A DNA stretch of 34,284 bases from Saccoglossus kowalevskii (taxonomy: Eukaryota > Hemichordata > Enteropneusta > Harrimaniidae). Below are positions 6,522-34,120 of this stretch, one piece after another. The position numbers and the translations under genes were made by a program. The stretch lies in assembly GCF_000003605.2 (NCBI RefSeq), contig NW_003128862.1, positions 947,695 to 981,978 of the forward strand, written 5' to 3'. The notes beneath the pieces are model-generated. The model worked only from the letters and a program-made list of their open reading frames with translations. It had not been told where the DNA came from and ran no database searches. Within the stretch, counting starts at the first letter, position 1, and each line of letters opens with the position of its first letter.

Positions 6522-6708
6522 TCAAAGCGTGTTCTCCAGTTCGTCGACCGTTGTTGTCATGTCTGATCCGTTTCTCATCAACTTCATGCCCTGGCTGGTG
6601 CTATACGTGCCGCTCAGAGTTGTTGGTCGTTGAGAATCGACCCGTTCACCTGGCGCCCATTTAAAACACGGCAGCCACCGAAGGGCCTTCCTGAAGCCGC
6701 GCCGGAAT
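6522..6708 (-). CDS. TACR: Tachykinin-type receptor, alternative terminal exon B (distal C-tail)
   Basis: The exon follows a strong acceptor (TTTATTCTCTTACAG). Its first A completes codon 338 as AGA, giving the canonical N-D-R-F-R. It then encodes 61 residues and a TGA at 6524-6522, for a 399-residue receptor. It opens FRRGFRKALRWLPC, with the same W-L-P-C position as tail A and nine of the first 14 residues identical to it. The remainder differs: 13 Ser/Thr in 61 residues, including TTLSGTYSTS and SDMTTT, and an acidic end (VDELENTL). Such Ser/Thr clusters are typical GRK and arrestin sites in this family. Codons are more GC-rich than in tail A. It matches the family consensus better and is probably the ancestral tail. 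Confidence 0.9.
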
Positions 6709-8359
6709 CTGTAAGAGAATAAATGTATATCACTTATTCGAGTACTTACTGAACACATTGCTGTCATGTCACATATCATTTTTGATTTCGACATTTTGAC
6801 TAAGTAAGTCATCATATCCGCCATGTTGTCAGAGTACGCCATTAATCACAACTTGATTGTTAACTTTTTACGTTTGTATTGGGAAATAATTAGAAAAGTA
6901 TAGCAACTTGTATTACAAGGTGATAACGTGTGCGTTGTAGAACGACGACATGTGCCTTTTTGTTTTTGTTAGTCTGTGAAGTGGTTAGTCTTCGTCCCAT
7001 GCTGTTTTTTTTCCCAAGTGCACTTGCGTGTATTGCGTGGTGTTCTAGATTAGTGTGACATCGTTCAATGCCGTATCCGTGTCCAAGAATATTCTCATTT
7101 CGCGTACCTAAGCTTCTGCGATGCTATTGGTCAGAGTGCGTAGTACTCAACAGCGAAATAGAATTCTCGTCTTATATCACCGTACACGAATATGAACATT
7201 TTATACGTTGTTTCTTAGTTATATAGATGTTGTAAACTTGGTGACCTGGTCACGTGCACGGCATGTGATTACAGGAAATGATGGGCATTTCGGATTGGCT
7301 GCAGCACACTAAGTGCGCATGTGAACATTGTGCATGCTGTAAGGAATGTGCAGCCACATAATGGACTCATAGTAATACATTGAACCATTATATCTCGTAC
7401 TGAATAATATCGCCAAAGATTGCGCCATTTTAATCAAATGTAAAATGCTTAATGAAAATGATTCGTTGTAAATTAACTTATTGATTATTGATCACTAAGT
7501 CAGATTTATCTGTGTTCTCGAAAAAGCAATTTTCAACCTCAGAGACGCCATCAACGACGGTATAATAAATAATCTAAATCATGCTGGGATTAGCCGCTAG
7601 TGACGCAATAATGAAATTTACGCCACATTCGCTCGCTCAACTGTCTACATGAATAAATGGTTGTGTTTGCGCCATCAACGGCCTGAGGTCTGGAGACATA
7701 GGTGATCATGCATGCATTACAAGTACACAATGTACTAAAACGAGTCCAGAAGTATAAGCCGGATTCTAATCGGTTGGTTGGATGCGCAAACATTGGGGAT
7801 TTATATTTCACATGCAATGGTCTCAGGCCAAAAACGTGCATTTAATATTTTACAAGAAAACTAGTAAATAAAGATGCTGAAAAGTGATGTGGAAACAGGA
7901 AAAGACGATTCAAGAAAGTTAGGTAAAATAGATATAATAATTTATTCAAATTAGTGTAAAATCAACTTGGAATCAAATTGAAATATTACAGTACGCAACT
8001 CGTATGTTAGAAATGGGGCAAATCGTCTTAGCAAAATGGAAAATAACTTACACACACTAAACAACATAGAAAAATGTGTTAATACTATATATGTATTGCA
8101 TATGCAAATAAATGAATGCAAGTCGTGCAAGGAAATTTAATGTTAAGGAGTGTGATTCATGAAAGAAATGTGATAAACATATATACTATCTTATGCGAAC
8201 TAATTTCGTCACGTGACAATTTAAAAGGCGTGCACCCCATTGGATCTACTTTCAAGAAGCTATTTCATTAATGCCCAAATAATTCACAAATGAGCAGACA
8301 ATTGGTTAGTAAATAACATTTCAGATACAGACCTAAAACCTCGTTGCTCTACATGGTGT

Positions 8360-8365
8360 TTTAAT
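8360..8365 (-). terminator. Candidate poly(A) signal for tail A
   Basis: ATTAAA lies about 97 nt past the tail A stop codon on the minus strand. It is the nearest canonical-type hexamer; the next AATAAA is near 7946. No cleavage evidence is available. Confidence 0.35.
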
Positions 8366-8461
8366 GTAATGCTTTCAAAAAATGATCATGCAATGTATTT
8401 ACATTACATAAGGGGGCATAACACGTGGGACAAAACAACCAACCAGAAACGAGCTTTGCTT

Positions 8462-8618
8462 TCACACTCGTGACGTCATCTTACTTCTGATCGCAGCCAC
8501 GTCATGTACTCGGCATTTGTATGTAACTTTCGTGTATCCCAACGATTTGTTCCATTCGTTCGAGGTATAGTGTACACACGGAAGCCACTGGAAAACTTTC
8601 TTGAATCCTGTTCTAAAG
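8462..8618 (-). CDS. TACR: Tachykinin-type receptor, alternative terminal exon A (proximal C-tail)
   Basis: The first base completes codon 338 as AGC (Ser), followed by 51 residues and a TGA at 8464-8462, giving a 389-residue receptor. It opens FRTGFKKVFQWLPC, the helix-8 segment with a candidate palmitoylated Cys at 352. The rest of the tail is basic (about ten Lys/Arg) with nine Ser/Thr, and it ends M-T-S-R-V. Ser at -2 and Val at 0 fit a class I PDZ ligand. Ser-338 replaces the Arg usual in the N-D-R-F-R motif. The acceptor is TTCATTTATAG. An internal GTAAGA at 8484 could act as a donor, but joining it to tail B would shift the frame, so a terminal exon is preferred. The function of this tail is inferred. 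Confidence 0.82.
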
Positions 8619-9180: not shown

Positions 9181-9297
9181 CTGTTTGCAAAACGGTTAAA
9201 CGTCATATATTGTACATTATGATTTTTGGTCACACGTATCGATGTGTGTTGCAACGACGAATACTTATATTTGGATCAAATACATATTATTTTTAGA

Positions 9298-9399
9298 TTA
9301 TTACGAGGATACCTCAAAGTATGCACGAAGACAGTACAACAGGAGTATCGACTGACACGCAGATGCGACAGTGTACTGTTTGAGGTATCCTCGTAATAA
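9298..9399. repeat. Perfect 21-bp inverted repeat with 60-bp loop
   Basis: The left arm 9298-9318 (TTATTACGAGGATACCTCAAA) is the exact reverse complement of the right arm 9379-9399. The loop of 60 bases contains ACAGTACA and CAGTGTACTG, extending imperfect pairing. It lies in intron 2, about 115 nt before exon 3, and its right arm overlaps the start of repeat family 1 copy 2. A small hairpin MITE or one terminus of a larger element are both possible. Confidence 0.8.
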
Positions 9400-9551
9400 C
9401 CTTATTATTATACATCTTTTCCGTCCATCATGGAAATGCCGAAATCCAAACTGTTTAAAACAGAATCAGAGAACTTCTTTGTGTAGAATCCGGTCAAACC
9501 CTGGTGGCATTTTCTGATATGGTAGGATGAAAATACCCCGTAAAATACCGT
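9394..9551. repeat. Dispersed repeat family 1, copy 2 (receptor intron 2)
   Basis: This copy shares TAATAACC, ATTATTATACATCTTTTCC, ATGGAAATGCCGAAATCC and GGTAGGATGAAAATACCCCG with the copy at 5112-5301. Just beyond its end, 9563-9577 (AGATGTATAATATTA) is an imperfect inverted match to the ATTATTATACATCT start, which would suit short terminal inverted repeats of a MITE-like element. Confidence 0.7.
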
Positions 9552-10467: not shown

Positions 10468-10735
10468 ATGTTCAATGGATGCACTGATCTGATACTACTG
10501 CATTATTATTCAAATACATACTATGTTGTTTCTAATGTTCAACGGATGCAGTGGTCTGATAATATCACGTATACATCACATAAATGTGATGTTTCTAGTG
10601 CTCGACGGATGTACTGATCTGATAATTTCACGTATACATCACATACATGTAATGTTTCTAATGTTTAACGGATTCATTGATCTGATAATATCATATTTGT
10701 ATCACATAGGTGCACTGTTTCTACTGTTTAATACA
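10468..10735. repeat. Minisatellite, 63-bp unit, about four copies
   Basis: Copies lie at 10535-10597, 10598-10660 and 10661-10723, each exactly 63 bp, preceded by a diverged 67-bp copy (10468-10534) and followed by a partial one. Each unit runs from TGTTCAACGGATG through CTGATCTGATAAT and ATCACAT to GTTTCTA. One unit contains the near-palindrome ATCACATAAATGTGAT. Because 63 is a multiple of three, one plus-strand frame stays open across it; that ORF is a by-product. Confidence 0.9.
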
Positions 10736-14220: not shown

Positions 14221-14882
14221 CAGAAATACCAATCTCCATAATTTTCCTGGTCGGGCCATATTGTAGCACATACTCTTCGTACATAGATGGGCGTGTCTGT
14301 TATTTTAGGAGGAGGACATGCACTAAAGTCGATATTGGTAAATATAAGCCAAGGGAGGGCGATTACGGCTGACGCAATCCACACGACGGCGATGATCGTT
14401 TTAGCGAGAATCTTAGACATCCTCGGCCTCATGGGGTGAACTATCGCAATATATCTGTCTATACTTATAGCCATTAGAGTGAATATACTTGAAGCTACTG
14501 TTAATGGTGAGATAAATCGTACGATCTTGCAATACGCATTCCCAAAATACCAATCGTTTCGGAGGACGTAGGTAAAAGTGAACGAGATATTGAAAATCGC
14601 GTTTAGGGCATCGGCAAGAGCTAAGTTAACGATGAAATAGTTGGTTACTGTTCTCATACGGCGATGAGCGAGGACGATCCACATAACAATGCAGTTTCCC
14701 ACCGCAGCGGTTACAATCATCGCGCAAAAAAGTAAAGTCCATATGAATGTCTCTATGATCGGCTGCTGGAAATCTTGACATGTTTCGTTCCAATTATACT
14801 CGTTATCGGATTCTACCGATGGTGCGAGTGTGGAATGAAGGGTGAAGTTCAAACTTGCGATGTACGAGGAATTCGATGCCAT
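14221..14882 (-). CDS. TACR: Tachykinin-type receptor, exon 1 (N terminus to extracellular loop 2)
   Basis: The exon encodes residues 1-220 plus two bases of codon 221. The ATG at 14882 has A at -3 and G at +4, and an in-frame TAA lies ten codons upstream, so this is the likely start. The extracellular N terminus has three N-glycosylation sequons (N4, N12, N32). TM1 carries G62-N63, followed by AHRRMRTVTNYF as in neurokinin receptors. TM2 has NLALAD with D91 (position 2.50). C118 opens TM3 and DRY is residues 142-144. TM4 has W168 and P177. Loop 2 has VCATIWP with C205, the likely partner of C118; the C-x3-W-P spacing is typical of tachykinin receptors. The donor is TTTCTG|GTAAGT. Vertebrate TACR genes carry further introns in this part, which are absent here. 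Confidence 0.94.
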
Positions 14883-33614: not shown

Positions 33615-34120
33615 GGCTCTTCTTCTTAATTCTTGTTGCTCCAACCGGAACATAAGGTTAACACAAGATCCCTCCATTCGCACGGTTTTTAGCCTTGGTT
33701 TCTGCCTCTCCCCATGTTAAACCCATTTACCTGAGTTCTTGATCAATGGTTCTCCGCCAGGTGTTCTTCGGCCTGCCCCTTGGTCGTTTTCCTTGTGGTG
33801 TCCAGCGGAGATCTATATTGGTGTTGTATGAATCGGACATTCTGAGAACATACCCAAGACATCTGAGTCTTCTAAGCCTTATTTGTGCAGTGATGCAGGT
33901 GGCTCCAGTTCTTTTGAGGAGGTCCAAGGTGATATTCGGCAGGGCCAGAAAACTTTGCAGATGCGCCTGAGGCAGTTATGGTGAAAACTTGATAGCTTTT
34001 TCATGTCAACCTTGGTGACCCTCCAGCTTTCGCTCCCCTACAGCAAAATGGATTTTACATTGCTGTTATAAATTTTGACTTTAGCTGCTGGCATTAACAA
34101 CAAAGGATTATGTGCATACT
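33615..34120 (-). mobile_element. LINE (non-LTR retrotransposon) 3' end, degraded
   Basis: The minus strand encodes the C-terminal end of a LINE ORF2-type protein. In order it has KVKIYNSNVKSILL, GSESWRVTKVDMKKLSSFHH, NCLRRICKVFWPCRIS, then in another frame DLLKRTGATCITAQIRLRRL, LGYVLRMSDS, RWTPQGKRPRGRPKNTWRRT and GLTWGEAETKAKNR. This RT-thumb and C-terminal arrangement (LLYGSE, RGRPKxTWRR, TWGEAExxAxxR) is typical of RTE/I-like LINEs in animals. It is not functional: the Tyr of LLYGSE is a stop, the frame changes after WPCRIS, and another stop follows QELR. Only about 500 bp remain, a 5'-truncated copy possibly continuing no further than 34120. The exact clade is uncertain. Confidence 0.88.

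Follow-up and report, generated by a model that had tools for sequence, protein, structure and literature searches.

A gene on the minus strand of the Saccoglossus kowalevskii DNA analysed here (34,284 nucleotides of contig NW_003128862.1, referred to as the window) is predicted to encode a tachykinin-type receptor, one of about eight copies in the genome, and we consider it likely that its duplicated last exon provides an alternative tail switch that determines the fate of the active receptor. The homology of the two terminal exons (designated A and B), their reading frame, their order, their retention and their constraint are established here, and in this family of receptor genes the two probably serve as alternative terminal exons that are functional and under constraint. 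The first-pass annotation of this DNA had proposed that two homologous terminal exons, both in frame, share a single receptor body, a proposal that is borne out, including by the sister genes described below, and its exon coordinates, splice phase and count of nine matches in 14 positions were all correct on recheck. The features of the gene and the sister copies with the same exon order are listed in Table 1.

Table 1. Features of the receptor gene, in window positions, and locations of the sister copies with the order exon 3, A, B.
Feature	Position	Strand	Description
Exon 1, coding part	14882-14221	minus	ATG at 14882; TM1-TM4 and extracellular loop 2; donor TG/GTAAGT
Exon 2	12564-12414	minus	151 bp; TM5 and intracellular loop 3
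Exon 3	9180-8981	minus	200 bp; TM6-TM7; ends CWLND plus AG of a split codon; donor GTAAGT
Terminal exon A	8618-8462	minus	Tail A, 52 aa, ends SKMTSRV; stop 8464-8462; acceptor AG 8620-8619
Possible poly(A) signal ATTAAA	8360-8365	minus	96 nt past the tail A stop
Terminal exon B	6708-6522	minus	Tail B, 62 aa, Ser/Thr-rich, ends VDELENTL
Possible poly(A) signal AATAAA	6475-6480	minus	After tail B; place not conserved in sisters
Sister copy c2070b	C2070, near 1.047 Mb		Exon 3, A, B
Sister copy c2070c	C2070, 1.129 Mb		Exon 3, A, B
Sister copy on C14	C14		Exon 3, A, B
Sister copy c3406	C3406		Exon 3, A, B
Sister copy c129	C129		Exon 3, A, B

When the spliced body with tail B is compared with PDB sequences, the best match is the human NK1 receptor (E 2.7e-89), and the top 11 of the best 60 matches listed are NK1, NK3 and NK2 receptors (E 2.7e-89 to 1.8e-73), with the nearest non-tachykinin receptor family among those matches at E 1.8e-54. 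The translation contains a 7tm_1 domain (PF00001, 3.6e-63) together with the DRY and NPxxY motifs, present as IDRYIAI and NPFIY, and these comparisons identify the predicted product as a tachykinin-type receptor, a class A GPCR. This identity agrees with the account, given in a review, of multiple tachykinin receptors in hemichordates and echinoderms (PMC6880623). In the mitochondrial COX1 of the same genome, ATA codons line up with Ile at 5 of 9 places and with Met at 1, and TGA codons with Trp at 6 of 8; hemichordates translate ATA as Ile. Exon 2 has an AG acceptor and a GT donor in all four of the copies checked. The intron preceding exon 3 contains a 63-bp minisatellite of 3.2 copies (window 10527-10728), and c2070b appears to carry many more of these units at the equivalent place; just upstream of exon 3 there is also an inverted repeat (window 9278-9419; 41-nt arms, 80% complementary and 60 nt apart), which is possibly a small mobile element. 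Elsewhere in the window, a minus-strand open frame at 33727-33975 has no Pfam match, and presumably resembles the end of a retroelement endonuclease-reverse transcriptase.

At the 3' boundary of exon 3 (...AACGATAG, followed by GTAAGT) two bases of the split codon are left over, and the acceptors at 8618 and 6708 each contribute the one missing base and then continue in frame to their own stop. Exon A begins 362 bp past exon 3. Tails A and B have a common helix-8 start, FRxGFxK, and a common Cys, and the sequence beyond is unrelated; they are identical at nine of 14 positions in the block from F to C, and at nine of 16 over the 16 codons that can be aligned. Among copies of tail A the Cys lies in a WLPC or LLPC context, and in c2070c the helix-8 start is YRxGFxK, with YR for FR. 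A and B are neighbouring homologous exons of the same phase within one gene, the arrangement of a C-terminal tandem duplicated exon substitution.

The resemblance of A to B was evaluated by scoring every AG on the window minus strand (1502 sites) as a candidate tail acceptor using BLOSUM. The 8618 site is the sole tail-like site besides B, with a score of 59; no further AG on that strand scores above 19, and there is no third tail exon elsewhere in the window. The best score in 200 same-length first-order Markov windows is 38, and a chance match between A and B is ruled out by this value together with that of the next-best site. With the human NK1R tail as the reference, A scores 37, B scores 38, and the next best site 18. 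Across the 16 aligned codons there are 18 base differences between A and B (4, 4 and 10 by codon position), with pS of 0.89 and pN of 0.23, such that synonymous sites are near saturation and the protein block is kept. Simulated random substitution of equal size yields a protein change as mild as this, with no stop, in only 1.2% of cases when starting from B and in 0.4% when starting from A. The site scores and the substitution simulation together indicate that exon A is a tail exon duplicated long ago, with its protein sequence conserved. The length of the A frame by itself is weak evidence, because an open run of at least 51 codons follows 7.0% of 1482 AG sites and is hence not rare here; the sister copies are the stronger support for exon A.

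We searched the source genome (572 Mb, 4830 contigs) for related copies. The stretch of 700 bases around A gives six further matches (78–85%), five of which are within receptor genes ordered exon 3, tail A, tail B, and a search with exon B DNA gives eight copies genome-wide, the window included. Exon 3 is readable in six of these eight (the window and five sisters), and all six have A and then B in the same phase, with tail A in frame in five of the six. The frame of tail A is evidently not random, since the window gene and its five sisters all have it and only one has lost it; this is c129, in which a 1-bp insertion after the seventh codon causes a frameshift. In c2070c, tail A is two residues shorter and ends KMVS. 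The other two B copies are incomplete. For c2070a (C2070, 0.865 Mb) the search recovered exon 1 and B but not exons 2, 3 and A, whose expected site is a 4.4-kb assembly gap. The c4136 copy (L025/L026), the sixth match to the stretch around A, is partial: its match starts 7 bases before the end of exon A and runs through B. Its B frame is open, and the 7 kb of contiguous sequence upstream contains no receptor body. The c129 insertion, the early end in c2070c, and the presence of c4136 without A or a body indicate that A is not indispensable in each copy.

A protein query spanning exon 3 and the last part of exon 2 gives six close matches with 94–99% identity, which are the same six genes, followed by a relative on C1815 at 64% and at least 23 other places at 48% or below (best 150 of 286 candidates); at E 1e-10 there are at least 30 matches with 150 of the 286 candidates scored. 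One tachykinin receptor has expanded to about eight copies, located on C2070 (0.845–1.146 Mb), C14, C129, C3406 and C4136 (L016-L026, L038-L039). Four of these are on C2070, one of them in the opposite orientation, and the receptor bodies are 92–94% identical among the four copies compared. The noncoding DNA of c129 and c3406 differs by only 4–12%, and these two may be alleles or very recent copies.

The acceptor of exon A (ATTTATAG, followed by CT) is invariant in all six copies. Because A contains a stop codon, and the only donor-like site inside it, GTAAGA, is not conserved (it is missing from c129 and c3406), exon A is most likely a terminal exon. A role for A as an internal exon leading to B was rejected, as the phases would put the join out of frame and the donor-like site is unconserved. 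The two exons had been described as mutually exclusive, a term that does not apply in the strict sense to an exon with its own stop and without a conserved donor, and we refer to them as alternative last exons. An ATTAAA or AATAAA hexamer is present within about 100 nt after the A stop in all five copies with an in-frame A, although its aligned place varies, and none is near in c129; such hexamers are weak evidence, because the region is AT-rich and they are common there.

To compare rates of change, the DNA from exon 3 to B was aligned for six copies, leaving out c4136 and c2070a; c129, being frameshifted in A, was not used in the codon counts for that exon, nor in the variable-column counts, the third-position test, the simulation or the dN/dS bootstrap tests. 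Mean pairwise identity among the six copies is 0.94–0.97 in exon 3, 0.91–0.93 in exon A, which aligns nearly without gaps, and 0.88–0.94 in alignment windows over exon B, with about 0.79–0.87 in the A flanks and 0.54–0.86 in the remainder. Exon A, like B, thus appears in the alignment as a conservation island. In the five copies with an in-frame A, 30 of 157 columns are variable in A, 30 of 187 in B and 20 of 200 in exon 3, whereas the two A flanks have 95 of 241 and 112 of 280 (207/521 pooled; Fisher p 1.5e-6 versus A). Pooled dN/dS is 0.39 for A (five copies), 0.29 for B (six copies) and 0.07 for exon 3 (six copies), with dS at 0.17–0.18, near the intron divergence; the bootstrap interval for A (0.18–0.88) overlaps the values for nine noncoding frames (0.57–1.25). 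Third-position enrichment among the copies is not significant in either exon (12 of 30 in A, likewise B, p 0.28). In a neutral star-tree simulation at 0.095 per branch, equivalent to the flank divergence, variability as low as that of A was seen in 0 of 5000 cases, while at 0.05 per branch it is not unusual (P 0.17). Coding constraint on both exons is seen in the flank contrast and in dN/dS, with a wide interval for A and a codon-position enrichment that is non-significant, and A is probably constrained in the same manner as B, as a loosely but really constrained tail.

The slightly faster change in A than in B, with an interval for A extending up to 0.88, could also be read as decay, such that exon A would be the relic of a duplicated last exon which was once usable and whose splicing has since been lost. 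The frameshift in c129, the shortened A in c2070c, and the change of the NDR motif to NDS in tail A all point the same way. We regard this explanation as unlikely, however, because A is in frame in five of six copies despite pairwise differences of 16–26% among those five in the three noncoding stretches measured, and because A forms a conservation island with an invariant acceptor and far fewer variable columns than its flanks. A different possibility is that A is used chiefly for regulation, reducing the output of full receptor as a poison exon or an early poly(A) exon, and not as a functional second tail; its short distance from exon 3, its termination of the frame and the bases just past its stop, which are also well conserved, would all be consistent with such a role. 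A poison exon, though, need not keep about 50 codons, a helix-8 motif, a Cys and an SRV end (present in four of the five in-frame copies), and we find this account improbable. It is highly improbable that A came to lie in this intron by chance, either as the terminal exon of some other receptor gene or through an artefact of assembly: mis-joins could have arisen, given eight closely similar copies and several gaps in the assembly, but the proposal is contradicted by the order exon 3, A, B on four contigs (three copies sharing one of them) with introns alignable on both sides. Spread of A by a mobile element alone was also rejected, since its copies, c4136 excepted, are embedded in receptor genes whose introns can be aligned.

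A diverged receptor on C1815 (L046, C1815:42152-42352) provides a view of which tail is the older. Its exon 3 ends in the same phase, and 1.2 kb past it there is a tail reading RFRRGFKRALRFFPCV... and then a Ser/Thr-rich stretch, with 11 of 16 positions identical to B. Between this exon 3 and the B-like tail there is no A-like exon, the next best A score being 14. Because C1815 has a B-like tail without an A-like exon before it, B is probably the ancestral tail and A is derived, unless C1815 has lost A or has it further downstream. The C1815 exon 3 is followed by GCAAGT, and there is apparently a GC-AG type intron ahead of the B-like tail.

Under the preferred reading of A and B as alternative functional tails, an old duplication of the last coding exon would have created two alternative last exons. 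If exon 3 is spliced to A and the transcript is cleaved and polyadenylated beyond A, the product would be a receptor with a 52-residue tail, usually ending SRV; if A is skipped, splicing of exon 3 to B would produce the ancestral-type tail of 62–64 residues, with more Ser/Thr. From these features we infer the use of A in transcripts, a choice between poly(A) sites, and a functional difference between the two tails. After the helix-8/Cys region there are 8–10 Ser/Thr residues in tail A (in-frame copies) and 11–13 in tail B (six copies), a modest difference. The Cys after helix 8, which could be palmitoylated, is kept in both tails. A class I PDZ ligand motif has S or T at position -2 and a hydrophobic last residue. 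The SRV end of tail A, found in four of the five in-frame copies with c2070c as the exception, matches this motif and is possibly a PDZ ligand; tail B ends in ENTL, ENML or ENAL, none of which fits. Tail B would be expected to direct phosphorylation and arrestin-type desensitisation of the active receptor, and tail A would be under weaker phosphorylation control and possibly bind a PDZ scaffold, with ligand binding left unchanged by the swap. By analogy with Aplysia, the choice of tail most likely switches the fate of the active receptor. We offer more tentatively, as a possible but rather doubtful extension, a family of about eight genes with a two-way tail switch, in which B is the ancestral phospho-regulated tail, A is the derived PDZ-docking tail, and the choice is set independently in each copy. 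More generally, tail choice can set the speed at which a neuropeptide receptor is shut off. Because the tail starts are homologous, the swap would affect helix 8 and the tail alone and leave the ligand-binding body unchanged, and the six natural gene copies are a ready comparison for identifying which tail residues are kept.

The first-pass annotation took tail swapping to be undescribed in tachykinin receptors, a view that is out of date in view of the reports from Aplysia (PMC11365428) and abalone (PMC9521575); its claim of novelty is weakened and its biology is strengthened. The Aplysia receptors apTKRPR-A and apTKRPR-B derive from one gene by alternative splicing, differ only in the tail, and have been cloned and functionally tested; only the B isoform is reported to desensitise, dependent on C-terminal Ser/Thr and on phosphorylation, with Ser/Thr counts of 14 versus 5 (PMC11365428). 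As described there, the Aplysia system is like the one here in that the same receptor family has its intracellular C-terminus swapped and one tail has more Ser/Thr (PMC11365428). It is unlike it in being a single gene in a mollusc, whereas the present exons are homologous to each other and the same layout recurs through a family of genes, although the Aplysia tails may be homologous too. In abalone, the transcripts Hdh-TKRL and Hdh-TKRS do not differ between the start codon and TM7/helix 8 and have different tails thereafter, but in contrast to the present case, the authors' account of the pair, in text that does not use the word exon, leaves splicing versus gene duplication undecided (PMC9521575). 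For oyster, silkworm and fly, the Aplysia paper predicts TKR isoforms, and it also cites NK1-like isoforms of the cane toad, which, with the long and short NK1R and the alpha and beta NK2R of vertebrates, are C-terminal isoforms of tachykinin receptors as here; the long and truncated NK1R forms differ in desensitisation (PMC11365428). The mammalian isoforms depart from the arrangement here in that their C termini largely overlap, with one being longer, and the treatment of them in that paper makes no mention of a homologous replacement exon (PMC11365428).

In the literature searched, whose coverage takes in few subscription papers, we found no tachykinin receptor described as having homologous duplicated last exons, nor, among the matches listed, any account of a homologous last-exon pair kept through a receptor gene family. 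The alternative exons of the insect receptors ETHR-A and ETHR-B are reportedly 3' exons. Use of these related exons gives two subtypes of a peptide GPCR that are conserved among insects (PMC8291126). Unlike the swap of helix 8 and tail here, the ETHR swap is described as much larger, the complete variants being 43.4% identical in protein, and as altering ligand sensitivity (PMC8291126). The human tandem duplicated exon substitutions, of which 77 of 236 are C-terminal, likewise have homologous exons swapped at the end of the protein (PMC9741552). That set differs from the present one in being human, and the sections of the paper drawn on here do not mention GPCRs and name receptors only as olfactory receptors, in the context of proteomics filtering (PMC9741552). 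If the tails of mollusc TKRs are built likewise, then the switch either dates back to the bilaterian ancestor or evolved more than once. The genes described here are probably a third lineage, beside molluscs and vertebrates, with tail isoforms of tachykinin receptors, such that a common versus a repeated origin becomes testable.
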